From positions 1-35,811 of IMG/VR virus record IMGVR_UViG_3300006875_000061: a DNA stretch of 35,811 bases. The stretch is one strand, 5' to 3'. Shown in pieces: positions 3,070 to 20,201 of this stretch. This DNA comes from a virus. The notes beneath the pieces are model-generated. The model did not search any database. It was not told the DNA's origin and was given only the letters and a program-made list of their open reading frames with translations. How positions within the stretch are numbered: position 1 is the stretch's first letter; each line of letters opens with the position of its first letter. The position numbers were made by a program, and so were the translations under genes.

Positions 3070-3117
3070 CCACCAAAACCAATCATGAAAACCTGAGATA
3101 CCCCTACCTCATTGCCG

Positions 3118-3333: not shown

Positions 3334-3341
3334 TCTAGTTA

Positions 3342-3869: not shown

Positions 3870-3872
3870 AGT

Positions 3873-4154: not shown

Positions 4155-4170
4155 TTTTTATTTTTGTAAT

Positions 4171-4209
4171 GGCTGTTGGCTATCAGCTAAACGCTAATGG
4201 CCAACAGCC
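4171..4209 (-). repeat. hairpin between capsid gene and next gene
   Basis: GGCTGTTGGC at 4171-4180 pairs perfectly with GCCAACAGCC at 4200-4209 around a 19-nt loop. It starts 11 nt after the capsid stop codon. No T-run follows on the minus strand, so it is better explained as an RNA processing or stability element, or an attenuator that keeps capsid mRNA more abundant than the next gene. Similar GCTGTTGGC/GCTGTTAGC words recur in the signal-peptide codons of the fibre gene near 10450-10485. Confidence 0.55.
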
Positions 4210-4219
4210 CGTTTTATTC

Positions 4220-5116
4220 TTAAGCCTGATCGTTTACAACAACTGCACTTAAATCAGCAATCTGGCAACCTACTTCAGTCAAAATACGACCTTCAATCAG
4301 GTTACGGCTTTGTGAAGCTGCTACACGCATTCCGCTTCCGAAACCAACAACCAGGTTGTCAGCAATAGTTGCTATAATTCTGTTTGAAGAGCCCATCCAT
4401 GAAGCCACCTTTAACTTCCAGCTTGGGTAGTTATCAATTTGATACTCGCCATCAGCTGTAGCTTTAAACTGGAAGTTGTAAAGTGAGCGATAACGCTGTA
4501 CATAGTAATTGAATACTGTGCGCGATACTAAAATAACACCACCTTTTTGCACCATCCACTCAGGGAAGGTTGCAATCATAGCATCTACTTTTTCAACTGC
4601 GTTGGCAGAAGTAACCGCTCCTGTTGCTACAGGTGTAATGTTAGTTGCAGTAATCTCGTCAGCCACAATGGTTAAAAACCCATCAGCAATAGCTGCAGCA
4701 GTTGAGCCCGATGCGTTGTAGTTACCTGCACCAAGCACACTGTTATTAATAGCAGCCATAAAAGCCTCGCTTAATACGTTAAGCGAAAACTGATAATAAG
4801 GGTCAGCCGCACCTTTTGCAAGGTAGGTGTTAAAATATAATTCAGGATCATACAAGAAATCCCATTTAGCCTTGCGCGCTGTAAGCGTGCGGTCAGTTCC
4901 CACAACACCTTGCGATGCGCTGTCATCGTTTTCGCGATAAGGGCGCGGGTTACCTGTAGCAGAAAGCTTCGGTAATACTTCCGGCTTATCAAGGTTTTTC
5001 AAAACAAGAATACCTTGCCCATCAAGGTCTAACTTGTTTACATTGTTCATTAAAATCTGCCCGCCAAAGTTTACAAAGTCGGTGGTCAGTGCTGATAAAT
5101 CCGGTGTTGCTGCCAT
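4220..5116 (-). CDS. major capsid protein
   Basis: The 298-aa main shell protein. It lies directly downstream of the ClpP-type protease/scaffold gene, the standard order for HK97-type heads. The sequence has the mixed alpha/beta character of such proteins: an N-terminal segment (FVNFGGQILMNNVNKLDLDG), a central helical region, and a C-terminal block (SRTVFNYYVQRYRSLYNFQF ... GFGSGMRVAASQSRNLIEGR) like the P-domain and spine of capsid proteins. The C-terminal ADLSAVVVNDQA resembles the ends of other Bacteroidota phage capsids. No cleavage site is evident, so whether the N-terminus is trimmed cannot be judged. Identity is inferred from position, size and composition. Confidence 0.8.
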   Translation of the reverse strand: MAATPDLSALTTDFVNFGGQILMNNVNKLDLDGQGILVLKNLDKPEVLPKLSATGNPRPYRENDDSASQGVVGTDRTLTARKAKWDFLYDPELYFNTYLAKGAADPYYQFSLNVLSEAFMAAINNSVLGAGNYNASGSTAAAIADGFLTIVADEITATNITPVATGAVTSANAVEKVDAMIATFPEWMVQKGGVILVSRTVFNYYVQRYRSLYNFQFKATADGEYQIDNYPSWKLKVASWMGSSNRIIATIADNLVVGFGSGMRVAASQSRNLIEGRILTEVGCQIADLSAVVVNDQA

Positions 5117-5155
5117 GGTAATTTATTGTTTTTTGTTTGTTGTTTTTTGTTTAGT

Positions 5156-6184
5156 TTAAATTTGCCCTTTAGCCTTTTTTTCTCTGGCTATTCTGTCGTA
5201 GCTGGTTTCGTTATATGCCGGCTTTACTTTCTCAATGTTATCGGCAGCCTCCTGCACAGTAGCCGCAGGATCTACAGCCTTTGCTTTCAATTCTTCATGC
5301 GCAGCTTTTTCAGCAGCCAAAGCAGCCTGTGCCTGAACCAGCTCTGCCTGAGCAGATACAAAAGCAGCAAGCTCATCATGAGTTAAAATGTTTTTTTCGG
5401 CTGTCATAGCCTCAATTTCAGCCATCACAGCCGCTTTATCCGCATCATTAAGCGCAATTTTGCCCTCGCTGATAGCGTTTTTTAAAGTTGAAAAGTTCAT
5501 TACTTCTTCTTTTTTAGGTTTAAAGTTTACTGCCTCGCGCAAACGGTTTACAATGCCCGCCACAAAATTCTCTTTGTTATCAGTACCGCGTTGTTTAGCA
5601 TAAAAAGCATAAACATCAGTAATACTCATAGCTGCAAGGTTTGCAGGCACGTTTTCTGCCGGGCGGTTAATTACTTCATCAATAAGCTTTGCACCAAGCG
5701 CCTCATCGGCACTTAAAGTATGATCCTGAAAATCCAGCCATTTAGCCATCACTTCCTCAACAGTCATTCCTGTTTTTTCGGCAATTGAAATAGCAAGGCT
5801 GTTATCCAGCTTCTGCATCATTTCAACGGCTCCGGCTAAATCTTTGCTGTTGCCCATGGCACCGCCATAAACATTATGAATAAGGATGGTGGCGTTCTTA
5901 GCCGCTGCAACCTTTTGTCCGGCCAGCGCGATTATACCCGCCATGCTGTAAGCAATACCATCCACAAACGTATTAACAGGCTTTTTAGCCTGTAAAAGCA
6001 TATTATAAATTGCTACACCTTCAAACACATCGCCACCCGGTGAGTTTATACGCACATTAATGGTATCAACAGAAGGGTCAGCCTCCATTGCGCTTAACTG
6101 AGCCTTCACCGATTTAGCAGTTACGCCCTCACCGGTCCAGAAATCAGCACCAATAATATCGTATATAAGTAGCTCGCCTGTCAT
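5156..6184 (-). CDS. ClpP-type prohead protease with C-terminal scaffold region
   Basis: A serine protease of the ClpP/Clp-like head-maturation family that trims scaffold during head assembly. The hallmark RINSPGGDVFEG lies at 45-56, the nucleophile Ser80 in AYSMAG, and His103 in ILIHNVYGG; the acidic member is probably within DFQDHTLSADEA at 151-162. After about residue 225 the protein changes to an Ala/Glu/Lys-rich helical tail with a likely coiled coil at 275-305, typical of a scaffold. An internal ATG at 5500 (M229, MNFSTLKNAISEG) could give a separate 114-aa scaffold protein from the same frame. It overlaps the upstream gene by one base and precedes the capsid gene. Confidence 0.9.
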   Translation of the reverse strand: MTGELLIYDIIGADFWTGEGVTAKSVKAQLSAMEADPSVDTINVRINSPGGDVFEGVAIYNMLLQAKKPVNTFVDGIAYSMAGIIALAGQKVAAAKNATILIHNVYGGAMGNSKDLAGAVEMMQKLDNSLAISIAEKTGMTVEEVMAKWLDFQDHTLSADEALGAKLIDEVINRPAENVPANLAAMSITDVYAFYAKQRGTDNKENFVAGIVNRLREAVNFKPKKEEVMNFSTLKNAISEGKIALNDADKAAVMAEIEAMTAEKNILTHDELAAFVSAQAELVQAQAALAAEKAAHEELKAKAVDPAATVQEAADNIEKVKPAYNETSYDRIAREKKAKGQI

Positions 6185-6777
6185 TATTGTAAAAGCCCTG
6201 CCGCCTGAAGCTTAGCCTCAAGCTCATTAACCTTTGTTTGTAAATTGATAATTACTTTTAAAACACTTTGCCCTTCATCTGCCGAAACAAAACCATAAGG
6301 CGATGAGTTTGTTAAATTCGCAATAGCATAATCGGGTGTGCCCGGTGCCGATGCTGTAACTGTAGTAAGCGATGCTGTTAAAGCAGTTGCTGCCGCTACC
6401 GATATAACCGGAACCCATGCAGTATTATTATATACGTTTAAAGCGTTGGTTGTTGTGTTATAAATAAGTAAACCTTTTGCAGCTGTACTGTCCGCTGTGC
6501 TGGTGCTAACATCCTCCAGAATAGCATTGCGCTGTGTAGTAGTCATGCGCGGAACCAAAACACCACTGGTAGTGCTGTTTACTTCCAGCCCTGCATTTTC
6601 GCTGGTGCCTACAGTTGAAGAAGATATTACCGCCTTGGCTACATAAGCCGAATCGCCAACAACTAAATTTTTTTCAAACTTAGAGTCAACATTAGAAATA
6701 ATCTTTGGATAAGTAATTTGCGCCTGCGTTACAGTTGCAAATAAAACAAGTGTAAAAAGTATAATTATGTTTCTCAT
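6184..6777 (-). CDS. secreted fibre-like protein with signal peptide
   Basis: I start at the ATG at 6777 (MRNIIILFTLVLFATVTQAQ), an evident signal peptide with cleavage after TQA; a longer frame to 6876 has an unconvincing N-terminus that would run through the promoter-like motif. The mature part has VLVPRMTTTQRNAI followed by GLLIYNTTTNALNVYNNTAW, the same segment found in the large fibre at 8856-10499 ([14 protein letters not shown] ... [21 protein letters not shown]). The C-terminus is a short coiled coil (VLKVIINLQTKVNELEAKLQ). A Sec signal is unusual on a virion part, so a cell-surface or adhesin role during lysogeny is equally possible. Confidence 0.7.
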   Translation of the reverse strand: MRNIIILFTLVLFATVTQAQITYPKIISNVDSKFEKNLVVGDSAYVAKAVISSSTVGTSENAGLEVNSTTSGVLVPRMTTTQRNAILEDVSTSTADSTAAKGLLIYNTTTNALNVYNNTAWVPVISVAAATALTASLTTVTASAPGTPDYAIANLTNSSPYGFVSADEGQSVLKVIINLQTKVNELEAKLQAAGLLQ

Positions 6778-6825
6778 TGTATAATTCAGTATTTTGACGA
6801 TACAAATATTGCACGGCACAAAGCC

Positions 6826-6847
6826 TATAAAAAGGACAGGTTTAAAA
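6826..6847 (-). promoter_or_regulatory. phage-specific promoter-like motif, copy 2
   Basis: The minus strand carries TTTAAACCTGTCCTTTTT, identical over 18 nt to the copy at 35671-35691. It lies 50-70 nt upstream of the ATG at 6777, in the only gap of the capsid block (6778-6856). Because each copy precedes a separate late block, a phage-encoded or phage-modified promoter or an activator site is the simplest reading. Confidence 0.5.
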
Positions 6848-6856
6848 CCGCCATTA

Positions 6857-7879
6857 TTACCGCACCTTATAATCAATTATTTTGCGGTTATCCACCACAA
6901 AATCGCCCTCCTTATTAATAAGCTCCACTACAGCAAACCCCTTATTGTGTTTGCTTACCTGTGGGTTATACTCAGGGTTTACTGATGTAAGGCAGCCAAC
7001 ACTCCAGCATCCGGTTACTTTGCCCTTAATATCGGTTTCAATATGCTCACTGCTTCTGTGGCAGTGCCCTATCATTATACTTGCGTTGGCTTTTGTAAAC
7101 GCACCACGGGCAGGATTAACCGGAGCAAATACACCCTTTACAATATGGTTACCATGCGCAATTACCAGCTTGCCGAAATGCATGGTGCGCACATTCTTTA
7201 CATAATCAATATGCATTTTTTTGCAGTCCAGCAGGTTTTCCAGCTCAATAGATGGCAACCCCCAAAACTCAGGCGCTTTTTGTATCAGGTAATTTTCAAC
7301 CCTTATATCATGGTTGCCCTCATGTAAAATAATTTTACAGCCCAGAGCAGCCTTAATGTATTTCAAAATCTCTTTACCCTGCTCAATACTTTCAAGCATG
7401 CGCGGAGCGTTTGGTTTGCTGATGTATTTGCTGATGGTGGTAAAGTCCAGCAAATCACCATTAATAATAACCGCATCAACACTTTCGTTAAATCCATACT
7501 CAAGCGCAATATCCAGCGCCTTCATATCCACATACGGTATGTGAGTATCGCCAATAACCAGCACTTTTTTAAACCGCTGGTTAATAAGGTAAGGAGTTAC
7601 ATCGGCATGGTCGGCCTCCTCTATTTTACTTTCAGCCCTTAGTTTTGCCAGGCGATCAAGAAACGAAACATTAACGGCAGCTTGTGCAATGTGTTTTTTA
7701 CCAACCCCTGCTTTACCCATTACCTGCAAAACCACTTTCCGGGCCCTTTCAATATCCTTAAAAATAAGCGGGTATTTGCTGTGTAGCAATTTACCAAGTG
7801 TGCGGTGCGCGGTTGTTTTTGGGTTGTCTGTTATTACCTTGCGGGCAAGGTCAAATTGCGTCACCTTTTGCTTTGGCAT
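6857..7879 (-). CDS. calcineurin-like metallophosphoesterase
   Basis: A 340-aa enzyme of the binuclear-metal phosphoesterase superfamily. All signature blocks are present in order: GDTH at 110-113, GD at 141-142 (INGDLLD), GNHD at 188-191, AHGNH near 241-245, and GHCH at 271-274. The N-terminal 100 residues are helical and basic (FDLARKVITDNPKTTAHRTL; LLHSKYPLIFKDIERARKVV) and could bind nucleic acid. Substrate cannot be read from the sequence; phage relatives include nucleases and cyclic-nucleotide or DNA-end phosphatases. It lies between the lysis-like genes and the second signal-peptide protein, with one base between its start and the upstream stop. Confidence 0.85.
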   Translation of the reverse strand: MPKQKVTQFDLARKVITDNPKTTAHRTLGKLLHSKYPLIFKDIERARKVVLQVMGKAGVGKKHIAQAAVNVSFLDRLAKLRAESKIEEADHADVTPYLINQRFKKVLVIGDTHIPYVDMKALDIALEYGFNESVDAVIINGDLLDFTTISKYISKPNAPRMLESIEQGKEILKYIKAALGCKIILHEGNHDIRVENYLIQKAPEFWGLPSIELENLLDCKKMHIDYVKNVRTMHFGKLVIAHGNHIVKGVFAPVNPARGAFTKANASIMIGHCHRSSEHIETDIKGKVTGCWSVGCLTSVNPEYNPQVSKHNKGFAVVELINKEGDFVVDNRKIIDYKVR

Positions 7880-8855: not shown

Positions 8856-10499
8856 TTAATAATAACGAACTGTTGTTTCAACCCCTACACCGTGCAAGCC
8901 TACGGTTTCGCCTCCGGGAGCTTCGCTTTCTACAATAATGTAGTAAAAGGTTCCTTCCACGGCAGCTTCGTCAGCAAAATTGTAGGTCGTAGTGGTTAAT
9001 CCTGCTCCGGTCATGGTTTGCTGTGCGCCAATAACGGTATAAGCAGTTGCTGCGGAAGTAATACTCTTTTTAACAAATGTAACCAGCACCCCGCCAGATG
9101 CTCCGGAGCTACTCCATTTTACACGCAGACGCGAAAAGTTTGTGCCCGGCTGAAAATTTACCGGAAAGGCTATAATACGCGCATCTGCTGTAGTGTGTAA
9201 ACTATCAGCAGTACCACTCCACGAACCTGATACGGTATGATAATTAGCTACCGATGACCAGTCCTCCCAGCGCGTATAGGTGCTGTAAGTTTGCCCGTCT
9301 GTATTTACGCGAAATCTTTCGGTTGCTGTGTTTAGCGTAGTGCCGCCAGCACCGGCTGCACCTATTTTTACTATTAAAGATGCACCGGTTCCGCTGCCAG
9401 TTCCCAAACTTGGCTGCAACGTTAAATCTGCGGTTGAAGTTTGGTTGGTGCCCGTTTCATTTGTATTTCTAATCAATACACTGGTTGGTGTTGTATTTGT
9501 ATTTCCATTGCCAACTAGTAGTTCATTTACACCTATTGTACTTGCCCGACTTAATGCATCTGCTCCGCCTATGACACATTGATTATTTGCCGATGTAATT
9601 GCTCCTACACCTATAGCTATTGATGCAGTGTGTGCGGGATTACAATCAACACCCACGCCAATAGCTCCTAAACCATGAGTTAAATTACGGCTCACTCCAT
9701 ACCCCATCATTACTCCGTAATTATTGATAGTTCCTCCGCTTCCTGCTCTTTGACCTACAATTGTAACAGCATCAGGCGCAGAAGCGCCTATTCCCTCATA
9801 ATTAATAATTATTCCTGAATTTGGGCTTGCTGTTGTAGCCCCTATAACAATACCACTTGATGAATTTCTAAATGAAGACGCTCCTGTTTTAAAACCAGAT
9901 GTAGATGTTAAAATATTGTTTGTTTTATCCCAAGTCAGATCTGCATCACCGGCAGATGCTCCCGCATCATTAAATATAACCTGTGTAGTGCTTCCTGCTA
10001 CTGGTCCTGTTGCTCCCGTAGCACCAGCGGCTCCTGTTGAGCCATCTGCACCGCTTGGGCCTGTTGCACCCGTTGCACCCGCGCTTCCTGTAGCTCCATC
10101 TGCACCGCTAGGCCCTGTTGCTCCATCTGCGCCACTCGGTCCGGTTGCACCCGTTGCGCCTGTGGCTCCTGTTGCACCAGTTGACCCTACGCTTTGCACC
10201 CATGCCGAGCCGTTGTAGTAATAAAAACCGGTGGTACCATCGGTTTGGTAAATCATTAATCCGGTTGCGGGTGATGCAATGGCTGATTTTTGGGCGGCAG
10301 TCATGCGCGGCACCAGAAATCCTTTGGCGGTGCTTTCCAGTTCCAGTATGGCGCTGGCATCAATGGCTGTGCTTTGGCCTATGGCCATGGTAGCGGTGCT
10401 GGCATAATTCCAGTTGCCCTTCATTAAAGGGTTGGTTTGGGCGGTAGCCCCAACAGCTAACAGCCAACAGCTAACGGCTAAAAAAAATGTTTTTTTCAT
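8856..10499 (-). CDS. large secreted fibre with collagen-like repeat
   Basis: A 547-aa protein, probably a tail fibre or surface adhesin. Residues 1-20 form a signal peptide ([19 protein letters not shown]). A segment [14 protein letters not shown] ... [21 protein letters not shown] (61-100) is shared with the 6184-6777 protein. From 105 to about 166 runs a collagen-like Gly-X-Y stretch of some 20 triplets, mostly GAT, GPS and GAD, expected to form a trimeric stalk. The remainder is Gly/Ser/Thr/Asn-rich and beta-like, as in fibre shafts, ending in a compact domain ([20 protein letters not shown]). It starts one base after the stop of the 101-aa gene. A signal peptide on a structural phage protein is odd. 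Confidence 0.75.
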
Positions 10500-11921: not shown

Positions 11922-12140
11922 TCAACCACCCATAACATAAACAAGTCGGCCGGTAAAAATGGCCTCCATAAAATCACTCAGTTTATAGCTCAGCTCTTTT
12001 TTATTAACTACACTTTTGCCATCCAAAATTCCACCCGATTCCAACTCGGCAGCCACCACCTTTTCCTGATCGCGGTCCACAACCTTCCAGTGCGTTTCGG
12101 TCTTTTTTGACCTAAAAACCATGTTTTTTTCAATTTTCAT
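11922..12140 (-). CDS. small hypothetical protein downstream of repeat region
   Basis: A 72-aa protein starting at the ATG at 12140 (MKIEKNMVFRSKKTETHWKV). A longer frame to 12296 exists, but its N-terminus is a read-through of the GTTCCAA repeats and is not credible. The sequence has two halves: a beta-prone segment with basic residues, and LDGKSVVNKKELSYKLSDFM leading into a C-terminal FTGRLVYVMGG. No family recognised. It is the first gene after the repeat region, so it may be controlled by it. Confidence 0.5.
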   Translation of the reverse strand: MKIEKNMVFRSKKTETHWKVVDRDQEKVVAAELESGGILDGKSVVNKKELSYKLSDFMEAIFTGRLVYVMGG

Positions 12141-12164
12141 TTTAGCCAAAGCATTTTTGTGAAA

Positions 12165-12383
12165 AACGTTCCAACGTTCCAAAAAAGTATATAACATATT
12201 GATACCTAAAATTATAACCATCAAAAAACCTTTGGAACACCTTTGGAACGTTTGGAACACTTTTGTCATGGTTTTGTCTGCGTTCCAACGTTCCAAAAAA
12301 AATACTATACATTTTACTATACTTATCTATTTGATTTTTACTTATTTATATACTTATTTTTGGAACGTTGGAACGTTGGAACG
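12165..12383. repeat. GTTGGAAC repeat cluster (candidate origin, att or operator region)
   Basis: Ten copies of the word TTGGAAC or its complement lie in four groups. Two are on the minus strand at 12165-12186 and two more at 12281-12300, each followed by an A-run. Three TTTGGAAC copies lie at 12231-12258, and three at 12357-12383 with an exact 9-bp period. AT-rich DNA separates the groups. The stretch 12141-12441 has no gene, directly follows the recombinase gene, and is the natural place for a phage attachment site. Iteron-type replication origins look similar. Confidence 0.7.
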
Positions 12384-12441
12384 CTTTTCACCATATCCTA
12401 AAACCGATTTTTTGAAATATGGGGGTCGTGGGGTGACTGAT

Positions 12442-13275
12442 TTATAGATTAAATCCATTAATCGGAGTTTGTATTTTTGAAATAAATCTATCGCTCAGAT
12501 GCAAATAAATGTTGGTAGTTTTTACTGAGTTGTGGCCCGCCACTTTTTGTATAAGATTTATATCCGTTCCACTTTCAACCATGTGGGTAAAAGAGCAGTG
12601 CCGCATCAGGTGCGCATAAACCTTTTTATTGATCCCGGCTTTGCCTGCCAGCTGCTTTAATACCTCATTTACGCTGCGCGAGCTATATTGCGGCTCAAGC
12701 CGTCCGTTTAATACATACACCTGCGGCTTATAAGTATGATAATACTTTTCCAGCAGCGGAATAAGCTCAGGGGCCAGCGGCACCTGCCTGTCTTTTTTAC
12801 CCTTTGCCTGCAATATGTTTATGATCATACGGCTTCGGTCAATATGCTTCCACTGTAAATTTATCAATTCTGAAACCCGCAACCCGCAGCTGTAAAGCAG
12901 CGCCATAATAACCTTATGCTTGGTATTACTGCAAACAGCAAACATGCGCTGCACTTCGTCTTTACTTAGCACAATAGGCAGCTTTTTACTTCCTCGCGGA
13001 TATTCTACCTTATCAAGCTTATCCGGTTGGTTGCCAACCTTTGCATAAAATAACTTAATAGCACTTAGGTAAGCCCGGTGCGTGTTGGGTTCATTAAACT
13101 GAGTAAGAAACAATTTTATTTTTTCTGCAGATATTTCGCTTGGCTTGGTTGCCTGCCCATCAAAATGCGCCAGAAACTTGCCCAGGCACGAAACATAATT
13201 TTTAACACTTTCAGGGGAGTAGCGTTTGTAATTCATCCAGTCGGTAAGCTGCCGCTGGTATTTTCCGATGTTCAT
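12442..13275 (-). CDS. int: tyrosine recombinase (Xer/phage integrase type)
   Basis: A 277-aa site-specific recombinase with an N-terminal SAM-like core-binding domain (about 1-85) and a C-terminal catalytic domain. The catalytic residues are visible: R133 (CGLRVSEL), K158 in the beta-hairpin (LQAKGKKDRQVPL), H222 and R225 (HLMRH), H248 (AGHN) and Y257 (TNIYLH). The extra helix that marks integron integrases (IntI, normally between the Lys hairpin and HxxR) is absent: residues 165-220 run as in XerC/XerD. It could integrate the phage, move the adjacent cassettes, or both. It is transcribed in the same direction as the cassettes and lies at their 3' side, so this is not the usual divergent intI arrangement. 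Confidence 0.9.
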   Translation of the reverse strand: MNIGKYQRQLTDWMNYKRYSPESVKNYVSCLGKFLAHFDGQATKPSEISAEKIKLFLTQFNEPNTHRAYLSAIKLFYAKVGNQPDKLDKVEYPRGSKKLPIVLSKDEVQRMFAVCSNTKHKVIMALLYSCGLRVSELINLQWKHIDRSRMIINILQAKGKKDRQVPLAPELIPLLEKYYHTYKPQVYVLNGRLEPQYSSRSVNEVLKQLAGKAGINKKVYAHLMRHCSFTHMVESGTDINLIQKVAGHNSVKTTNIYLHLSDRFISKIQTPINGFNL

Positions 13276-13326
13276 GTTGTTTGGTTTTGATTATTAGTTA
13301 TTTATAAGGGTAGTTTACATATAATA

Positions 13327-13359
13327 GTTACGGAAAACCCCTTCGGGCTTTTCCGTAAC
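13327..13359. repeat. 33-bp terminal hairpin of the array
   Basis: On the minus strand it runs from GTTACGGAAAAG to CTTTTCCGTAAC, a near-perfect stem with a short loop. It starts at the GTT of site A and ends in AAC, so it follows the same start/end rule as a cassette with no gene. It could be the insertion (attI-like) end of the array, a mini-cassette, or a terminator before the recombinase gene. Confidence 0.55.
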
Positions 13360-13464
13360 GGAGCGGCTGCTTTGCGACACGTGACAGCCTGAAGGGGCTG
13401 TCCCGTAACAGGTGCTTTGGCGAAATGCCAAAGGCACTGTCGCAAAGCAGCCGCTCCGTTATGT
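13353..13464 (-). repeat. attC-like site A
   Basis: Perfect 24-bp inverted arms at 13356-13379 and 13438-13461 enclose two smaller hairpins (13383-13402 and 13412-13437). The minus strand reads ACATAAC at the gene-proximal end, including the TAA stop of the 89-aa gene, and GTTACGG at the far end. It is more symmetric than the other six sites, with no unpaired base in the main stem, so recombination at it may differ. Confidence 0.65.
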
Positions 13465-13728
13465 TCCAGTTTGCTCTGCCTCCCCACGCAGTAGTTCACC
13501 ATAATATTCCTTTGAGTGTTTGTCAGGATAATAATCCAAATGTCCACTTTCAAGGTATCCAGTTTTGTAAGCTGTAACTATAATCTGTTTCTCTTTTTCA
13601 AGCCATTCATCAAACTTCAAGCGCATTTCTTCGTGGTCTATTGCCACATATTTAGTTCCGTCTTGCCCTTCAATATTAAAGGCGTTTTCAAGTGTCCATT
13701 GGATTAAATCCTGTAATGATGTCGTCAT
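13459..13728 (-). CDS. cassette gene 6, hypothetical
   Basis: An 89-aa protein of unknown function, acidic and aromatic-rich (LQDLIQWTLENAFNIEGQDG; IVTAYKTGYLESGHLDYYPD; HSKEYYGELLRGEAEQTGT). It has its own ATG 49 bp after the crossover of site B. The TAA stop is part of site A, with no spacer, as is common for integron cassettes. The boundary pair is GTTATGTT at the start and AACATAAC at the end. It lies closest to the recombinase, so if insertion occurs at that side it would be the newest arrival. Confidence 0.7.
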   Translation of the reverse strand: MTTSLQDLIQWTLENAFNIEGQDGTKYVAIDHEEMRLKFDEWLEKEKQIIVTAYKTGYLESGHLDYYPDKHSKEYYGELLRGEAEQTGT

Positions 13729-13773
13729 ATTATTTTATTTTTAGTTAGTAAATCCACCCACGCAAACCGAAAA

Positions 13774-13840
13774 CATAACAGCACCTAAATCGCAAGTGGC
13801 TGAAAAAGCCACCAGCGTTTAGCTGCAAAACGTTCTACGC
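13774..13840 (-). repeat. attC-like site B
   Basis: This is the shortest site and shows the attC plan clearly. TAAC (13776-13779) and CGTT (13831-13834) are the outer boxes. CTAAA-T-CGC pairs with GCGTTTAG, leaving T13790 unpaired. GC pairs with GC further out, and GTGGCT/AGCCAC (13796-13801 with 13807-13812) forms the tip. The plus strand ends in GCTGCAAAACGTT, shared closely by sites D, E and F. Confidence 0.8.
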
Positions 13841-14188
13841 AATGCTACTGACTGCTTCTAATGGAGTGTATCGTTCAACTTTAAATAATTTTTTGCCCAC
13901 CCGCTTTAAAAGAAATTTTTGTTCAGTCATATCATAACAATATCCGTAATGCTTGCACCTACCATTTTTTCCATTGTTCGGTTTATACCCATCACAAGCC
14001 CTTCCACATTCACCCGTTTCGCCAATGCAGAAATATTCTTTGCAGAAAAAATATCCTGTGCCCGTTTCTCTTACTGCAAGCACCAGCACAATTTCTTTTA
14101 AATCGTTTTCTATCAAATAGTCCTTGAAGTAATCTATCTGATAACAGTTTTCATCATTGTCATCTGTGAAGTATAGTTTTTTTGCCAT
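13835..14188 (-). CDS. cassette gene 5, Cys-rich hypothetical
   Basis: A 117-aa protein of unknown function with eight cysteines. Most lie in the middle third (FFCKEYFCIGETGECGRACD ... RCKHYGYCYDM), which suggests one or two zinc or disulfide knuckles. The N-terminal third is acidic (MAKKLYFTDDNDENCYQIDY) and the C-terminal third basic. The ATG is its own, 70 bp inside the cassette; the TAG stop is part of the outer box of site B (GTAGAAC). Boundary pair GTTCTACGCA and TGCGTAGAAC, 10 bp exact. Confidence 0.7.
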   Translation of the reverse strand: MAKKLYFTDDNDENCYQIDYFKDYLIENDLKEIVLVLAVRETGTGYFFCKEYFCIGETGECGRACDGYKPNNGKNGRCKHYGYCYDMTEQKFLLKRVGKKLFKVERYTPLEAVSSIA

Positions 14189-14254
14189 CGCTAAAAATTA
14201 TTTAAAGTTGTTTATCGTTTCAATTTAAGTTCATTGTAATTTGACCGCACTGCG

Positions 14255-14334
14255 TAGAACATACGATTAAATGCAACCTGCACCACCGCACAATGCCACC
14301 CTTCGCAGGCAGCATTAATCGTCCATCGTTAGTG
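14255..14334 (-). repeat. attC-like site C
   Basis: Outer boxes are GAAC (14257-14260) and GTTAGTG (14328-14334). ACGATTAA-A-TGC pairs with GCATTAATCGT, leaving one unpaired A as in canonical attC sites, and CCTGC pairs with GCAGG nearer the tip. Its plus-strand end lacks the GCTGCAAAACG word of sites B, D, E and F, so it belongs to a different attC type. Confidence 0.75.
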
Positions 14335-14341
14335 GCAAGTG

Positions 14342-14572
14342 CTACGATAGGTCGTCTATTTCAGCTTTCCAATCCATACAATCTCTTTCCCTAACATTTG
14401 ATGACATCCAATCAGCTACATCGGGGTATTTGTGCATTTCAATTTCATCGCCATTTTCGGCAGCTTTTACCATTTGCTCATAAATTTCTTTAGGCATTTC
14501 TACTCCTCCGTAACCAACTCTATAAGTTACTGTTAGGGAAAGAGATTTTACTTTTTTAGTTCCTTTTGACAT
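14342..14572 (-). CDS. cassette gene 4, hypothetical
   Basis: A 76-aa protein of unknown function: a basic beta-prone N-terminus (KGTKKVKSLSLTVTYRVGYG), a helix (MPKEIYEQMVKAAENGDEIE) and an acidic Trp-rich end (VADWMSSNVRERDCMDWKAE). It has its own start, 29 bp inside the cassette. The TAG stop lies in TCGTAGCACTTGCC just before site C; closely similar words (GTAGCATTG) precede sites B and F, so the gene-proximal flanks of these three sites are related. Boundary pair GTTAGTGGC and GCCACTAAC, 9 bp exact. Confidence 0.7.
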   Translation of the reverse strand: MSKGTKKVKSLSLTVTYRVGYGGVEMPKEIYEQMVKAAENGDEIEMHKYPDVADWMSSNVRERDCMDWKAEIDDLS

Positions 14573-14596
14573 TTTCGTTTAATTTACCGCACCAGC

Positions 14597-14699
14597 CACT
14601 AACAGTGGTTTTGTGCTATTATTTTGCCTATTAATTTTATCTAAGGCTTGAAATGTCTGCAAGGCAAAATAACAGACACAAAGCCGCAAAACGTTAGCA
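14597..14699 (-). repeat. attC-like site D
   Basis: Boxes CTAAC (14599-14603) and GTTAGCA (14693-14699). GTGGTTTTGTG pairs with CACAAAGCCGC using G-T wobbles, and TATTTTGCCT pairs exactly with AGGCAAAATA after an unpaired internal segment. The plus strand ends in GCCGCAAAACGTTAG, close to sites B, E and F. Confidence 0.75.
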
Positions 14700-14719
14700 G
14701 TAATAAACCGCCAACGCAC

Positions 14720-15118
14720 CTAAGCAAATCCTTCTCCTTTCTCAATCAGCACCCAAGTATTATCTCCATGTCTTTGATATGTTCCTGAACGCAACGGGAG
14801 GTTCAAATCAGCCAGCCACTCAACATTCGGTTCTTTCTTTGCCAATCGCTCAAACTTCATCAGCGTTGGGTATTCCTCAAATTCCAAGTTGCTATCTCCC
14901 ATATAAAATTGCTTTCCGTCTTTCAGTATTACCCACCCGCCAAATCCGTTATACATTCTCGTATTTAATGGGAGTTTATCAACTGTGGCTGGACAGCAAA
15001 GGCAACCTCCCGTTCCTCCCTCAATAGCAGGCTTCCACCACGCAGGGTTACTACTGCTAACAGCAGCCTTATGCAATGCGGGGGTCGGTGCTTCGTTTGA
15101 TACTTTTTTCTTTGTCAT
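14720..15118 (-). CDS. cassette gene 3, ORF whose start lies in the previous attC
   Basis: A 132-aa protein of unknown function with a possible metal or disulfide motif (GGTGGCLCCPA) and a compact C-terminal domain (LNLPLRSGTYQRHGDNTWVL). The start codon and first 20 residues (MTKKKVSNEAPTPALHKAAV) lie in site E, upstream of the crossover at V20 (GTT, 15059-15061). They therefore belong to the neighbouring cassette; only residues from about V20 on belong to this one. The next in-frame Met is residue 55, after the WWKPAIEGGTGGCLCCP region, so the cassette seems to need the borrowed start. Boundary pair GTTAGCAGTA and TACTGCTAAC, 10 bp exact. Confidence 0.7.
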   Translation of the reverse strand: MTKKKVSNEAPTPALHKAAVSSSNPAWWKPAIEGGTGGCLCCPATVDKLPLNTRMYNGFGGWVILKDGKQFYMGDSNLEFEEYPTLMKFERLAKKEPNVEWLADLNLPLRSGTYQRHGDNTWVLIEKGEGFA

Positions 15119-15187
15119 AAAATTCGTTTTTCAAATTAAGGTCTGTGCTATTAAGCCCGCACTGACATAAGGCTGCAAACCGTTATC
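15055..15187 (-). repeat. attC-like site E carrying a start codon
   Basis: TAACAGCAGCCTTATG (15058-15073) pairs with CATAAGGCTGCaaaccGTTA (15166-15185), then TGCGGG with CCCGCA further in. The long terminal loop holds the ATG at 15118 of the gene at 14720-15118. Inner sequence is shared with site G (GCGGGGGT, then GTGCTTCGT), so E and G are related and both encode a similar leader. Confidence 0.8.
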
Positions 15188-15271
15188 GGCAAGCGGGTGC
15201 AGTCCTTCGTATCAAGTGCAGAGAGGAAAATTTGAATTAAAAAATCCTCCCCGCAAATGATTGAATTATGA

Positions 15272-15334
15272 TTACTTCTTCGGCTTTTTTGGCTTCGGTT
15301 TTGGCATCGGCATTGTCATTGGTTTCTTAGCCAT
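15272..15334 (-). CDS. possible 20-aa Lys/Pro-rich peptide
   Basis: A 20-codon frame encodes MAKKPMTMPMPKPKPKKPKK, a very basic proline-alternating peptide. It lies in the same cassette as the gene at 15385-15777, between that gene and site E, in a stretch that is otherwise noncoding. The regular Lys-Pro pattern is unlikely from random AT-rich sequence, and I recall similar short Lys/Pro peptides in Bacteroidota genomes, but there is no strong ribosome site. It could also be a remnant. Confidence 0.4.
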   Translation of the reverse strand: MAKKPMTMPMPKPKPKKPKK

Positions 15335-15384
15335 GATATTTGCGTTTAATTGTTATGCTGAAATTTATAGGCGTTCAGCTTCTC

Positions 15385-15777
15385 CTATTTTAATTTTACT
15401 TCATCATTAGTCAGCCATTTGTGATTTGTCATCTTCATTCCGTCTTTCATCACCACATCTGAAAGCATTGCAGGAAGTGAGTAACTTTTTACAGTTGCCG
15501 TTCCTCCTTTCATTCCGTCCATGTGATTTACAAGCACTTCAATATTACTCCCTTCTTTGATTACTTTTGATTTTGCATCATCCTTATTGTAATCAATTGA
15601 AAAATTGTCTTTCAATTTCTTCTTTGCATCATCCCTGTTTGATTGTGCTTCTAAAGAGCGGTCAACCGCCCATTGTTTAAGTGCTTCATCATCATATAAT
15701 GCTTGAGCCGATTTTACTACTTGGTCGTAACTCTGTATCAGGTTAGCCAGTTTTTGTTTTGATGTATCTTTTGCCAT
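15385..15777 (-). CDS. cassette gene 2, hypothetical
   Basis: A 130-aa protein of unknown function. The first half is a long charged helix (LANLIQSYDQVVKSAQALYD; AQSNRDDAKKKLKDNFSIDY), probably a coiled coil. The second half is beta-like (SNIEVLVNHMDGMKGGTATV; LSDVVMKDGMKMTNHKWLTN). It has its own ATG, 114 bp after the cassette start, and its stop is about 200 bp from site E, leaving room for the small peptide at 15272-15334. Boundary pair GTTATCGGC and GCCGATAAC, 9 bp exact. Confidence 0.7.
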   Translation of the reverse strand: MAKDTSKQKLANLIQSYDQVVKSAQALYDDEALKQWAVDRSLEAQSNRDDAKKKLKDNFSIDYNKDDAKSKVIKEGSNIEVLVNHMDGMKGGTATVKSYSLPAMLSDVVMKDGMKMTNHKWLTNDEVKLK

Positions 15778-15886
15778 TTTATTTTATAATTTAATTGTTA
15801 ATGATTTAATGATTTGCCCACGCTATTTTTAATTCAAATTTTCTTTCCGTCTTCGTATCAACTTTTGTCGTGAGAAGTCCGCCAGC

Positions 15887-16019
15887 CGATAACAGCACCT
15901 AAAACGAAGGCGGGGGTTCTCTGCCTCTTATAAAAATTTGTAGTAGTTTGAAATTCATTGCTTCGTATTTAGTTTAGTGGTTAATCTCCCCGCCTTCGTT
16001 TAGCTGCAAATCGTTATAG
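15887..16019 (-). repeat. attC-like site F
   Basis: TAACAGCACCTAAA-A-CGAAGGCGGGG (15890-15916) pairs with CCCCGCCTTCG-TTTAGCTGC followed by TCGTTA (ends 16016), with one unpaired A. The central part contains a short frame (MNFKLLQIFIRG...) that runs into the arm but stops at TAG before the crossover, unlike sites E and G. It retains the GAACCCCCGC word of site G. Confidence 0.8.
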
Positions 16020-16025
16020 CCAATG

Positions 16026-16598
16026 CTACGACAGCGATACAGCGGACACTTCATAAGGCTTTGGCTTTAGGTGTTTCGGTAAATACAATGGATGCTTTGG
16101 CGTTCCATCGTTTGACAATTCAATGTAGTGAAGTGGTTTGCTAATCCACGACAAAGGCTTCCAATTATGGTCTAATCGCTTTTGCAATTTGTCCACTATT
16201 GCACTATTCCCCCATGCACAAACAACCAAGTGTGCAAGTGCCGACATTCTTCTAAACCACTTTTCATTTTCAACGCCTACAACAAATGGAGCCTTCAGTA
16301 AGTCTTTCGGGTTTGTGGCTCTTAATGCAAACAAGTTCACAACGTAAATTCCACCATATCCCCAATCCTTGGCAAAGCCCATACATCTTCGAATAGTCGG
16401 GTCGTCTTTTTCTGCATCAGCCGTTGAAGGATTTAGCATTATGAATAATACTCTCGGTTTATTTTCATCCCAAACACGACAAAGGGAATAGCGATACTTT
16501 TCGCAATCAGACAGAACAGCACTGGCTATAACAGCACCCTTGCAAAAGCGGGGGTTCTGTGCTTCGTCTGATACATTTGTGGTTAAATCATTGTTCAT
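16026..16598 (-). CDS. cassette gene 1, DUF1643 family protein with attC-borne start
   Basis: A 190-aa protein of the DUF1643 family; the core SDCEKYRYSLCRVWDENKPR and FIMLNPSTADAEKDDPTIRR, then CMGFAKDWGYGG and VNLFALRATNP, is characteristic. The biochemical role of the family is not established. The start codon and residues 1-22 (MNNDLTTNVSDEAQNPRFCK...) lie in site G; the crossover falls at V23 (GTT, 16530-16532). The family domain begins only a few residues later with no intervening Met, so initiation must occur in the attC. The leader resembles that of the gene at 14720-15118 (VSNEAP.PAL.KAAV against VSDEAQNPRFCKGAV). Boundary pair GTTATAGCCA and TGGCTATAAC, 10 bp exact. Confidence 0.85.
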   Translation of the reverse strand: MNNDLTTNVSDEAQNPRFCKGAVIASAVLSDCEKYRYSLCRVWDENKPRVLFIMLNPSTADAEKDDPTIRRCMGFAKDWGYGGIYVVNLFALRATNPKDLLKAPFVVGVENEKWFRRMSALAHLVVCAWGNSAIVDKLQKRLDHNWKPLSWISKPLHYIELSNDGTPKHPLYLPKHLKPKPYEVSAVSLS

Positions 16599-16655
16599 CT
16601 TTCTAATTCAATTTTGTGGTTAAGTTCCCCGCCTTCGCAAGGCTGCAACTATTAT
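16526..16655 (-). repeat. attC-like site G at the primase stop codon
   Basis: TAACAGCACCCTTGC (16529-16543) pairs with GCAAGGCTGC (16637-16646), and GCGGGG pairs with CCCCGC, with unpaired AAAA and CTTC opposite each other. The primase-proximal box is degenerate (GCAACTATTA in place of the usual CGTTA) and overlaps the TAA stop of the primase. This is the outer boundary of the array. The loop contains the ATG of the DUF1643 gene. Confidence 0.75.
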
Positions 16656-19600
16656 ATCGCCCCCTCCATCTCCATTTCCATTTGAGGATCATTATTTTTA
16701 AGGTTTACACCTAGCTCATCATATTTAAAAACATAAGCGCTGCTTACACCATCCTCAAAGCCGGTGGCTTTAATAAGCCCAACAAAAGCCTTGTGCCCGT
16801 GTATGTATGTTTTTAGTGAGCTCATGGCCATACCATTATGCCCGTGCTGCTTGCGGTGCATTTCCATATAAAGCGGATGCACCTTGGTAAACCTCATATA
16901 AAGCAGGCGGGTTGGTTTGTCAAGCACCACCGTTTTTTGCTCGGTGCGGTTAAGCATAATTTTAATCTCCTGGGCAGTATCAACCTTAAAATCAGTTTCA
17001 ACAGAGCGCAAGCCATCCCAGTTAATGCGCTTATCACGAAACAAAAACTCAATCATCATCCAGAACTGGCTCAACGCTTCACTTTCACTTATCTGTGCGC
17101 TCTGCTCAATAATCATGGCTTTACTTAGCTTGTAAATTTCCTTATAAGTAAAAGGCAGTGGCAGCACATCTTCCAGCACCTTGGCCGCAGTAATAACAGT
17201 AATAAAGTTGCGCAGTATCCGCTCATTATAATCTTCCAGCTCCTCCTTCATGGCGGTAAACTGCTCCTGAAAAACGGTGGCAAACTTCGCCTCCATCAAA
17301 TCGCGGTATTTGATCACATCAGCTATAACCCCGCTCAGTCCGCTTTCCTCCATCTGCTTAAGCTCGCTGTAAGCCTTTGTTGTATCTGTTTTACCTTGCC
17401 AGTCCTCTCTGCGAAAGGTAAGCAGCAGCGAGCGGGTAAAAAGCGCATTATCATCAAGCGTTGGCAGGTATTGCCCCGAAATAACACAGGCGCTGTTTAC
17501 CTTGGTGCTTTCGGTGCGGTTATCGCGGCTCATTACACCCTTCTCGTGCCCGATACCATCATAAGCAGATTTCAAAGCCTGAAAGCGCTTCTGGTCAATC
17601 ATGTCATTATACTCATCAAACCAAACAATGCTGTTGCGGGCGCGGGCAAGCTTGCGGTAAAAACCTACATTGGTTCCTGCTGTAAGGTTAAAGCCCGGCT
17701 GCGAGTTCCAGAAAATATTATTTAAGCTCCAGCCAAGCTGCGATTTACCACTACCCTTCTCACCAAACAAAAACAGGTGCGGGAAAATCTTGTATTTGCT
17801 GTAAATCATATCCCTGAAAAGCGCTGCCAGCAAAAAAGCAACTCCAAAGCGCCCCTTATCGCCATACGCCTCAACCATTAGCTTAGCCCAGCGCTCAAAA
17901 TTGTTTTTAGGGGTGTGGGTAAACTTAAACCATCTGTCATTTTCATATTGATCATCCTCCTCACGCACATCGGCATAAATGGTAGAAAAGGCAGGCAAAA
18001 AGAAGTGCTTATCCTTATGCATAACCACCCCGTGCTGATTTACGCGCATAAAAGCACCATTATAAATACCATCGCTAAAGGCATAAAAACCTTCCGGCTG
18101 CCAGCCAAGCGTTTTTAACTCCTCGCAAAGCGGAAACTTATCTGCTATTTTAGCCACTATTTTATTTAAGTGTGCAGCGTTGCCCTCAAAGAGATAGTTG
18201 CCTTCATTAAAAACGGTTTCTTTAAATTGCTGCACGCCAACAAGCGCCTTGCTTTGTAAGTCCAGTACTTTATTAAGCCTGCCATTATCAATCTCAACAA
18301 GGCGCTTATTATCCATCTTGCTGTAAATATGGTGTAATGGCTTCATTATAAAATTGCTTACCGGCTTAAAGTCTATTGCGCCCACATTCCAAAAATAATA
18401 GCCCGCGTTACCCTTCTCAGAAAGCTCGTAAAAACCATTCTTTTCGAACTCCTCACGGTTTACACCCTTTGGTAATGGCTTATCAGTTGGGGCAATAACT
18501 TCGTCAAAAATTTCGCTTTTGTGGTTAAACACCTCGCGCTTAAAATCTTTTGAATCAAGTGCGCATATTTTAGCAACGCTTTTGCAGTAATCATTTACAA
18601 TAATATCATCATCAATACGGCAAATCAGGTCAACCATTTCGTTAAAGAGTTCGCTTTTTTCGCGTATGTTTTTAATCAGTTTTGTTTTTACATCGGCAAA
18701 GTGCAGGATGGCATCGGTATGCATACCATGTATCTGAGCATACACATCTTCTGCCGGTGCTGTGGATCTGAAAAAATCATCCGGATCTAATCCTTCAGGT
18801 AAAATAACACACTCGGCAGTAAAGCCTGCCGCAATGGCAATGGGCAGGTTTTTAATAAGTGCGTTGCGCCCTGCCTTGTCGGCATCGTAAATAAAAACAA
18901 GGTGGTTGCAGTATTTTTTGAGCAGGCGGCACTGGGCAGGAGTTAAAGCGGTGCCGCAGGGAGCCACTGTATTTTCTAATCCAAAGCCGTGCATGCTTAC
19001 CACATCCCAGTTACCCTCTGCAACATAGGCAAAACCCTTTTCGCGTATTTTGCTTTTGGACAAATTGAGTCCAAAAAGTTCGTTTCCCTTTATAAATACA
19101 GATGTTTCGCCTGTGTTTAAATATTTGGCGGCTTCCTTTTCTCCGCTCAGGTCGCGGCCGCTAAATCCAACCACCATATTTTTCTCATTGTGTATTGGAA
19201 ACATAAGGCGGTTGCGGAATACATCGTATTTTTTCCCCTTACTCTCGCGTATAAGATCAAGGTCCTGCAACTGCTGCGCATTTTGACCGGCAAGCTGTGC
19301 CGCTTTAATCAGGTTATCCCAACCATCGGCAGCAAAACCAAGGTTAAACTTTTCAGCAAGTTCTTTAGAGCAGCGCAGTGCACCCTTTGGCGCATCAATC
19401 AAACGCTCATGGTAGTAGTTAGATGCCCATGCGTTAATATCGGTAAGGCGCTGGGTGCTTTCCATCTTTGCTTTGTAGGCAACAGCCTGCTCACTTTCAT
19501 CATACTCAACAACAATATTGTGGTTGTGTGCCAGTATTTTTATAGCCTCCAGCCACTCAACACCCTCTTTGTGCATTACAAAATTAACAGGGCTGTTACC

Positions 19601-19795
19601 ACCTTTGCCGCAGCCAAAGCATTTATAAATCCCTTTGGCTATGCTAACATTAAAGCTTGGTGTTTTCTCATCATGAAAAGGGCAGCAGCTTCCATAGTTG
19701 GCTCCCTTCTTTTTAAGGTCAACTCCATAGCGGTTTATTACCGTTACAAGGTCTAATTCATAAACTTTATCAATAGTGGAAGGCGAAATGAGCAT
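16652..19795 (-). CDS. primase-helicase (CHC2 zinc finger, TOPRIM, P-loop helicase)
   Basis: The 1047-aa main replication protein. Zinc finger of the CHC2 type: C38 and H41 (CCPFHDEKTPSF), C59 and C62 (YKCFGCGKGG). The bacterial-type primase core spans about 120-250 and the TOPRIM domain 255-335, with E260 (YVAEGNWD) and the D304/D306 pair (IYDADKAGR). The C-terminal half is a helicase-like ATPase: Walker A GEKGSGKS at 678-685, Walker B IVWFDEY with D727/E728. A following SRDNRTESTKVNSACVISGQ resembles sensor segments of SF3/D5-like or MCM-like phage helicases. It makes primers and probably opens the fork. Upstream is a small TM protein; downstream the stop codon merges into the first attC site. 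Confidence 0.9.
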   Translation of the reverse strand: MLISPSTIDKVYELDLVTVINRYGVDLKKKGANYGSCCPFHDEKTPSFNVSIAKGIYKCFGCGKGGNSPVNFVMHKEGVEWLEAIKILAHNHNIVVEYDESEQAVAYKAKMESTQRLTDINAWASNYYHERLIDAPKGALRCSKELAEKFNLGFAADGWDNLIKAAQLAGQNAQQLQDLDLIRESKGKKYDVFRNRLMFPIHNEKNMVVGFSGRDLSGEKEAAKYLNTGETSVFIKGNELFGLNLSKSKIREKGFAYVAEGNWDVVSMHGFGLENTVAPCGTALTPAQCRLLKKYCNHLVFIYDADKAGRNALIKNLPIAIAAGFTAECVILPEGLDPDDFFRSTAPAEDVYAQIHGMHTDAILHFADVKTKLIKNIREKSELFNEMVDLICRIDDDIIVNDYCKSVAKICALDSKDFKREVFNHKSEIFDEVIAPTDKPLPKGVNREEFEKNGFYELSEKGNAGYYFWNVGAIDFKPVSNFIMKPLHHIYSKMDNKRLVEIDNGRLNKVLDLQSKALVGVQQFKETVFNEGNYLFEGNAAHLNKIVAKIADKFPLCEELKTLGWQPEGFYAFSDGIYNGAFMRVNQHGVVMHKDKHFFLPAFSTIYADVREEDDQYENDRWFKFTHTPKNNFERWAKLMVEAYGDKGRFGVAFLLAALFRDMIYSKYKIFPHLFLFGEKGSGKSQLGWSLNNIFWNSQPGFNLTAGTNVGFYRKLARARNSIVWFDEYNDMIDQKRFQALKSAYDGIGHEKGVMSRDNRTESTKVNSACVISGQYLPTLDDNALFTRSLLLTFRREDWQGKTDTTKAYSELKQMEESGLSGVIADVIKYRDLMEAKFATVFQEQFTAMKEELEDYNERILRNFITVITAAKVLEDVLPLPFTYKEIYKLSKAMIIEQSAQISESEALSQFWMMIEFLFRDKRINWDGLRSVETDFKVDTAQEIKIMLNRTEQKTVVLDKPTRLLYMRFTKVHPLYMEMHRKQHGHNGMAMSSLKTYIHGHKAFVGLIKATGFEDGVSSAYVFKYDELGVNLKNNDPQMEMEMEGAI

Positions 19796-19811
19796 ATAGG
19801 GGTTTTGTATA

Positions 19812-20201
19812 TTAAAGGTTTATAAATAATAGTGCCGCGGCTATAGCCACAATAATTACTACCGCACTTACGGTAATAACCTCGGCAATAAAATCGCGGG
19901 GCGCATTTTTCTGCGCATTAATAGCCGCAAGCTCTGCAGCCTTATCAGCAGCAGCCTGATGGGCAGCCTGCACCATTTTCTCCACTCTTCTTTTAAAGCT
20001 GTCCGGGTCAAGATTATAAGGGCGGTTGCCCTCATTTACAAAGCGGGCGGTGCGCCTCCATGCTTTATCAAGTTGTGTGTAAATCTCGTCAAGCTCGTGC
20101 TCAGGAGTTTTGGCAAGTATTGCCTGTTTAAATTGCTCAACATAAATGGCAAGCTGGTTGCCATATTTTTCTGCTGCCCTTTCTGTAATTCTGCTATTCA
20201 T
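19812..20201 (-). CDS. hypothetical protein with C-terminal transmembrane anchor
   Basis: A 129-aa protein with a helical, charged N-terminal region (AAEKYGNQLAIYVEQFKQAI; LDEIYTQLDKAWRRTARFVN) and a single C-terminal membrane helix at about 107-128 (VITVSAVVIIVAIAAALLFI). It would be tail-anchored with its bulk in the cytoplasm. It lies in the replication operon directly upstream of the primase. A role in tying replication to the membrane or in host control is possible but not shown. Confidence 0.7.
   Translation of the reverse strand: MNSRITERAAEKYGNQLAIYVEQFKQAILAKTPEHELDEIYTQLDKAWRRTARFVNEGNRPYNLDPDSFKRRVEKMVQAAHQAAADKAAELAAINAQKNAPRDFIAEVITVSAVVIIVAIAAALLFINL

Follow-up and report, generated by a model that had tools for sequence, protein, structure and literature searches.

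Does the row of small genes lying between a primase and a tyrosine recombinase in the viral record IMGVR_UViG_3300006875_000061 form an integron-type cassette array and, if so, which enzyme moves its cassettes? The record, 35,811 bases from a tailed phage, was analysed over its whole length (hereafter the window). Seven units, six of them with an open reading frame (ORF), and seven attC-type sites were found in this row, next to a recombinase gene that has an attI-like site upstream, and we consider it probable, judging from sequence comparisons, that these elements together form a complete integron, borne by the phage and of non-IntI type, whose cassettes are moved by its own recombinase. A preliminary description had proposed an integron-type cassette array in a phage of Bacteroidota type, which the sequence supports. 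Its count of six cassettes and seven sites was right for the sites, all of which are present, and has to be extended by a seventh, ORF-less unit (13327-13457); it had not recognised that the neighbouring recombinase, with its attI-like site, suggests a complete non-IntI integron with inverted cassettes.

A chain of seven units

Each unit starts with GTT and the bases that follow it (8 to 11 in all), and the exact reverse complement of this start then precedes a hairpin, after which the next GTT follows in six of the seven units. On the + strand this gives a chain of six links through 13327, 13458, 13832, 14328, 14693, 15182 and 16013. The reverse complements previously noted at six GTT starts were all recovered with their lengths of 8-10 bp, and the link of the additional first unit is 11 bp long (stem score 22; folding z -11.5 for its attC region). 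That such pairing exceeds chance, as had been claimed, is borne out by 300 dinucleotide shuffles of 13301-16700, in which the longest chain was 1 (291 had none at all), and by 16 other pieces of 3.4 kb (8 places, both strands), which gave a chain of 1 at most. The features by which attC sites are recognised, namely R''/R' boxes, a folded imperfect palindrome and a GTT exchange point, are found in the window, the attC of the first unit being atypical in its long perfect stem, with a left end at 13353 or 13403. The direction of the mobile units is opposite to that of the ORFs, so that a hairpin stands at the 5' end of each ORF, and the 11-mer ATATAATAGTT occurs at both ends of the array, facing inwards.

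Folding and covariation of the sites

Two covariance models were used, R2 derived from 21 sites of other phages with the window left out and R1 from 21 sites of seven bacterial IntI arrays only. R2 recognised six of the seven window sites at E<0.01, the top match outside the array reaching 11.5 bits, so that the covariance check suggested in the preliminary description came out in favour of the array. The best site was 15055-15188 (78.2 bits, E 5e-15), together with 15887-16019, 16526-16657 and 14597-14699, followed by 13773-13840 (E 2e-4) and 13403-13464 (E 0.006), with 14254-14334 at merely E 1.4. The two best R1 matches in the 35.8 kb are likewise window sites, 15887-16019 (E 0.0016) and 15055-15188 (E 0.012), both on the + strand and with exact ends. 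Folded as single-stranded DNA, six of the seven sites had z <= -2.0, and the distal site, on the primase side, gave a non-significant z of -0.8.

Pairing between the two arms was compared with 1000 permutations in which the 3' arms were exchanged, and it exceeded all of them: the seven window sites scored 0.77 (permutation maximum 0.75), 41 sites in loci of the recombinase family described below 0.73 (0.52) and 44 Flavobacterium phage sites 0.83 (0.60). Among 21 family sites without the window, 83.8% of the cells pair and 18 of 22 pairs have changed on both sides; their covariation score of 0.524 compares with 0.150 (sd 0.019) in 500 shuffles, none of which reached it. The outer three R-box pairs of these sites pair poorly, as expected of bases that come from different cassettes. 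An RNAalifold run on 30 Flavobacterium phage sites found no structure, probably because of shifted gaps, and the arms were then paired in frame.

By a simple stem measure, three or four extra unpaired bases on the 3' side occur at 31 of 32 sites of IntI arrays, at 25 of 38 family sites (nine more have two) and at 33 of 42 Flavobacterium phage sites. A distinct phage attC architecture, based on one-sided unpaired bases (1 versus 5), was considered and rejected, IntI arrays being equally asymmetric. A pattern built from phage sites matched 73 viral stretches against 5 in bacterial genomes, counts that reflect the origin of the pattern in phage sites and include several viral matches that look like copies of the same isolates; a phage-specific attC family read from these counts was dropped as a general claim when R2 sites were later found in 59 of 118 bacterial genomes.

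The recombinase and its attI-like site

The recombinase falls below the curated IntI cut-off (TIGR02249, 170 bits against 265, in two stretches) and also below those for Xer proteins (NF040815, 187.6 against 220; TIGR02224, 155.3 against 335.2; TIGR02225, 157.5 against 329.6). Residues R133, K158, H222, R225, H248 and Y257, which we take to be the catalytic positions, are invariant across 18 relatives. The spacing from K to HxxR is 65-67 residues in all seven aligned family members and 66 in two bacterial relatives, compared with 106-107 in six of six IntI and 69-73 in E. coli XerC/D; consistently, the IntI-specific insertion is missing from the same seven members and present in the six IntI. 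Quick trees, in which the placement of the long branches (Leef_1, Freya) is unsure, gather the phage family in one clade (SH-aLRT 99, 97) and IntI in another (100, 99); the bacterial relatives fall on the side of the phages (92, 83), and E. coli XerC/D do not group with the family. The predicted structure is that of a normal tyrosine recombinase (mean pLDDT 83.5, pTM 0.58). XerA 5hxy is the best solved relative by sequence and by fold (Z 22.5, root-mean-square deviation 7.0), ahead of IntI4 2a3v (Z 21.0, deviation 11.3), both with large deviations, and no family assignment was drawn from the fold search. Taken with its genomic setting, this protein is probably the cassette-moving enzyme of the array, and not a known integron integrase.

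We propose that the motif at 13318-13329, from whose GTT the chain starts, is the attI-like site of this recombinase, as its position beside the recombinase gene and its sequence would fit a primary site. Among the loci found with the attC pattern (L030-L107), tblastn gave, besides a twin of the window, a single relative (L086, 43% identity), whose recombinase adjoins a six-unit array at the same distance of 52 nucleotides (nt). A protein search with these two recombinases yielded 26 loci, 25 belonging to the family (43-100% identity) and one distant. Counting duplicates, 21 of 24 family loci have the motif YATATA../GTT at a distance of 50-54 nt from the start codon; three loci with T or A for the first C were read from the printed sequence, one of them with A as first base, and the exceptions are L120 and L125, which lack the motif, and L119, which is cut. 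A chain of 2-6 units begins at the attI-like GTT in 11 of 16 relatives (12 of 17 with the twin of the window), leaving out duplicates (L111, L113, L117, L122), loci that are too short (L115, L119, L125, L127) and the distant L133. By comparison, 382 of 400 other GTTs in the same stretches start no chain and 4 start one of at least two units. The layout of recombinase, attI-like site and array is thus conserved in relatives.

A phage tyrosine recombinase with phage-integrase matches might of course be the lysogeny integrase, the attI-like site then being its attP and the cassettes having gathered there since attP resembles attI. A position beside its own site is usual for such integrases too. 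We nevertheless regard this explanation as quite improbable: in the phage loci, cassettes occupy just one side of the motif, and related bacterial genes stand near attC arrays with a like motif, in loci that were picked for this nearness.

Two family-related loci show further features of their own. Inside the array of L112, repeats of 117-473 bp (1489-6949; 88-92% identity) are perhaps duplicated cassettes. In Polaribacter phage Leef_1 (L027), a possible short array lies at 3630-4949 between the primase and a related integrase, in the same layout as in the window, and R2 at E<=0.1 detects no sites in it.

In relatives, whole cassettes are gained, lost and reordered at GTT

The preliminary description had suggested looking for gain, loss and reordering of cassettes at the GTT points, and relatives of the window display all three. 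Between L131 and L132, identity is 99.4% across recombinase and attI and 94% across 2.1 kb of far backbone, and the arrays that they carry between the same two GTTs are wholly different. A search with one attC region of the window led to Flavobacterium phages (37 records, 14 different genomes of which were compared), and an attC from one of these phages shares 78% identity with that of unit 4 (14597-14699) over 142 bp. In all 14 genomes the array begins at a constant boundary, AATATTGTA/GTT. The equally long lillamy9-1 and lillamy9-3 carry a 100% identical 439-bp unit at position 6 in one case and at the boundary in the other, with junctions at GTT; the hairpin of this moving unit stands at the 5' end of its ORF. 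Phages snork6-1 and snork6-2 differ by one 342-bp unit at the boundary, mumin6-1 and mumin6-4 by one internal unit of about 506 bp, and lillamy9-1 and snork6-1 by the moved 439-bp unit plus an insertion. The 14 genomes have seven different first units, while the far end is largely common to them wherever the chain extends that far, and insertion at a primary site would produce such a distribution.

These comparisons also bear on another explanation, namely that the repeats arise by chance or belong to terminators in an ordinary accessory region that homologous recombination has shuffled. The first unit is indeed little beyond hairpins, phages are mosaic and relatives of the DUF1541 gene occur without an adjoining attC. 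The shuffles and the covariation contradict it, however, as do the junctions at GTT, where the breakpoints of the lillamy9 and L131/L132 pairs share just a few bases, and we judge it extremely unlikely. Neither a fixed gene order with drifting sites nor scores no better than those of shuffled sequence were found.

Bacterial relatives

G005 is a genome holding one of the five bacterial matches to the pattern, and 118 genomes of its phylum (taken to be G005-G122) were scanned. R2 attC sites were present in 59 of them, part of which may lie in prophages. Relatives of the recombinase (E<=1e-50) were found in 109 of 345 genomes and IntI above its cut-off in 93 of 345. Within the 118 genomes, the presence of attC tracks that of recombinase relatives (38 of 44 with against 21 of 74 without, p 9e-10) and does not track that of IntI (17 of 39 against 42 of 79, p 0.43).

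Sixteen bacterial stretches (L193-L208) were picked for the nearness of matches, so that counts of their layout do not represent a sample. A chain was found in 15, with 44 forward and 2 reverse ORFs, and in 7 of the 12 stretches whose recombinase has the direction of the array an attI-like YATATA../GTT lies 50-91 nt past its stop codon; of the remaining five, one has a motif match at 13 nt and four have no motif. Seven of ten such genomes encode the Por secretion tail family (E<=1e-13), which is typical of Bacteroidota. The most striking pattern is that phages and chromosomes share an attI motif while the senses of recombinase and ORFs are reversed between them, which was noticed afterwards and with no prior hypothesis. 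As a separate observation, G062:C1:115566-141935 and G064:C1 hold 23 and 21 R2 attC matches, without IntI above the cut-off.

These counts also concern the possibility that the array is a CALIN (a cluster of attC sites defined by the absence of IntI) whose cassettes are moved by an integrase of the host or of a co-infecting element, IntI or other, the neighbouring recombinase being incidental. Cassettes move in Flavobacterium phages in which no tyrosine recombinase was found, IntI1 can use phage attC sites (PMC9892861, in its available part), and IntI itself is present in those 93 of 345 genomes from the phylum of the bacterium bearing such attC. We hold it unlikely all the same, given the fixed distance of 50-54 nt between recombinase and GTT, the conserved motif and the arrays that start there, and because attC presence does not follow IntI in the 118 genomes.

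Orientation and cargo of the cassettes

With the integrase side set to the left and the longest ORF of each unit counted, the arrays of 11 family loci contain 1 forward and 35 reverse ORFs (window, 0 forward and 5 reverse). The same script gave 26 forward and 6 reverse ORFs for IntI loci, where seven of ten loci yielded a chain and three did not. The phage cassettes are therefore inverted, facing attI in the direction of the primase operon, and this ORF direction makes a promoter Pc driving the cassettes unlikely. Flavobacterium phage cassette ORFs are inverted likewise.

In the family, 30 of 35 listed cassette ORFs were scanned and gave seven Pfam matches at E<=0.001, six of them above the Pfam cut-off: PF00145, MT-A70, TAGT, YopX, DUF4326, GTP_EFTU and a weak zinc ribbon. 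This cargo includes a C5 methyltransferase, an MT-A70 methyltransferase and a TET-associated glycosyltransferase. Methyltransferases are also among the annotated cassette genes of the Flavobacterium phages, which were isolated on Flavobacterium LMO6/LMO9; according to the available part of the paper on them, those that plate poorly on LMO6 lack a particular methyltransferase (PMC7077304).

The window cassettes encode a DUF1643 protein, a DUF1541 protein and four proteins of unknown function, and PADLOC returned nothing for the six ORFs. The ORF of unit 3 is the sole window cassette gene with a relative among the fetched loci, a weak one in L129 (38% over 90 amino acids), and a search with ORF 14720-15118 returned only the contig identical to the window. 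The DUF1541 gene has relatives of 70-74% in three viral contigs, and no attC was seen next to them over the 330 bases shown. Its unit also contains a tiny Lys/Pro-rich ORF (15272-15334, minus strand), read by eye as MAKKPMTMPMPKPKPKKPKK; a similar sequence follows the DUF1541 gene in L185-L187, where no attC was seen beside the gene. The listed ATG of the DUF1643 ORF falls within the distal attC (16526-16657), which may supply the start of the DUF1643 protein.

Proposed mechanism and its weak points

In the integron that we propose, the recombinase would act at the attI-like CATATAATA/GTT and at the folded attC of each unit, cutting at G/TT, and would thereby allow capture, excision and shuffling of small gene cassettes. 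Folded single strands would be its substrate, and the cassette ORFs, which point to attI and the recombinase, would be expressed within the primase operon and not from an integron promoter. On a broader scale, we favour, with some reserve, the view that Bacteroidota and their phages possess a second class of integrons that does not depend on IntI, in which Xer-like recombinases without the IntI insertion would have evolved (or kept) the use of folded attC sites at YATATA../GTT. In chromosomes the recombinase would read towards attI with forward ORFs (44 of 46), and in phages the recombinase gene and the ORFs would be flipped, so that cassettes join the replication operon and phages trade DNA-modification and accessory genes.

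Several results weigh against this interpretation. In the window, GTT is missing from the outer side of the distal attC (GCTGCAAC/TATTATAT), the canonical asymmetry of 3-4 bases is seen at just four of the seven sites and R1 at E<1 misses five of them. R2 at E<=0.1 finds nothing in P12002L (L029), Leef_1 (L027) and four IntI arrays, and 31 of the 77 pattern loci have no chain of at least two units. Within the family, no chain was found with the motif of L116, L123 (833 nt upstream) or L129, L114 has one unit only, and L120, as mentioned, has no motif. Among the bacterial loci, L207 has no chain, and for nine of the remaining 15 the start of the best chain is not located 50-110 nt after a recombinase reading towards it. 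The window recombinase lacks the extra domain that distinguishes IntI and is regarded as linked to the recombination of folded sites (PMC9024848, in its available part). Finally, a PF00589 search of seven Flavobacterium phage genomes of the type showing turnover found no tyrosine recombinase in any (0/7), so that another enzyme can move such cassettes.

Both the definition of integrons and the searches for them rely on IntI with its extra domain. If another recombinase does the same work, a class present in phages and a major bacterial phylum goes unnoticed in such searches, the IntI insertion is dispensable for cassette recombination, and phages have ready means to swap anti-restriction genes. 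Our results point to such an overlooked class in phages and their hosts, and the near-identical isolated phages that are one cassette move apart make the question testable now.

Relation to known systems

The array resembles classical integrons in its attC boxes, the G/TT exchange point, the attI-like site beside a tyrosine recombinase, the turnover from GTT to GTT and, in part, the asymmetry of its attC sites. It differs from them in a recombinase that lacks the IntI insertion and belongs to a separate clade, in an attI located 50-54 nt from the start codon and in its inverted cassette ORFs. Xer recombinases act on dif sites. Like XerA, XerC and XerD, the window recombinase is of Xer-like length, with XerA as its best solved relative; unlike them, its family sits by attI-like sites and cassette arrays, and the trees do not group it with E. 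coli XerC/D.

An array embedded in a phage is not without precedent, although the preliminary description knew of none in a phage replication operon: integrons and 17 CALINs have been reported in phages, and five of six tested phage attC sites were used by IntI1 (Qi et al. 2023, PMC9892861, in its available part). These CALINs, for instance in Polaribacter phage P12002L, share with our loci the attC clusters, their presence in phages of Bacteroidota among others and the methyltransferase cargo, but the available part of that paper defines them by the absence of IntI and describes no dedicated non-IntI recombinase. By the IntI definition the window array qualifies as a CALIN, yet a conserved recombinase flanks it. 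The arrays of the Flavobacterium phages (Muminvirus, Lillamyvirus, Hattifnattvirus) are alike in attC sequence, inverted ORFs and sites found by R2, and unlike in the absence of a tyrosine recombinase from the seven genomes searched; the words integron and cassette are not used in the available main text on these phages (PMC7077304). IntegronFinder 2.0 lists one complete integron in Bacteroidetes proper, as given in the available part of PMC9024848; the wider phylum from which our genomes come does contain IntI (93 of 345 genomes). We found no report of a non-IntI integron, or of phages that form a family with an attI and a recombinase of their own, in the literature searched, which did not include preprints, most subscription papers and supplementary tables. 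Within that literature, a phage recombinase family (43-73% identity) separate from IntI, with an attI-like motif at 50-54 nt and inverted cassettes, appears to be new, as do the GTT-to-GTT turnover in relatives and the bacterial co-occurrence of attC with recombinase relatives and not with IntI.

Other features of the window

On the minus strand the order is primase, six small ORFs and recombinase; coordinates are collected in Table 1. Among the phage relatives of the primase, proteins from Porphyromonas and Cellulophaga phages rank first, with roughly 30% identity.

Table 1. Coordinates of the proposed integron and of the adjoining replication gene
Feature	Position	Strand	Description
Tyrosine recombinase, 277 aa	12442-13275	-	PF00589 1e-36; proposed non-IntI cassette integrase
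attI-like site (candidate)	13276-13329	+	core CATATAATA/GTT at 13318-13329; counted upstream from the recombinase gene, G of GTT is base 52
Unit 1, ORF-less	13327-13457	+	terminator-like inverted repeat GTTACGG...CCGTAAC plus attC
Unit 2	13458-13831	+	ORF 13459-13728 (-), function unknown; attC 13773-13840
Unit 3	13832-14327	+	ORF 13835-14188 (-); attC 14254-14334, weak R2 match (E 1.4)
Unit 4	14328-14692	+	ORF 14342-14572 (-); attC 14597-14699
Unit 5	14693-15181	+	ORF 14720-15118 (-); attC 15055-15188
Unit 6	15182-16012	+	DUF1541 ORF 15385-15777 (-), PF07563 2e-7; attC 15887-16019
Unit 7	16013-16649	+	DUF1643 ORF 16026-16598 (-), PF07799 4e-43; attC 16526-16657, no outer GTT
Primase-type replication gene	16652-19795	-	distal array end; TIGR01391 1.6e-103

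The twin of the window, IMGVR_UViG_3300007363_000098, is a shorter contig, 100% identical where compared (2445-24646); it was rejected as an independent sample of this phage since, being identical, it is uninformative on turnover. Rfam and tRNA scans of the window returned nothing. Six records named "Bacteriophage" with Helicobacter hosts match some part of 12200-19900. At the 3' side of the recombinase gene, an imperfect inverted repeat of about 35 bases (12165-12198 and 12343-12377, 92%), with one arm within ORF 11922-12296, could be a terminator or a further recombination site. Finally, a 547-aa ORF (8856-10499) contains GATGPSG repeats of collagen-like type, with DNA that is repeated at 10002-10179, and probably encodes a tail or fibre protein.

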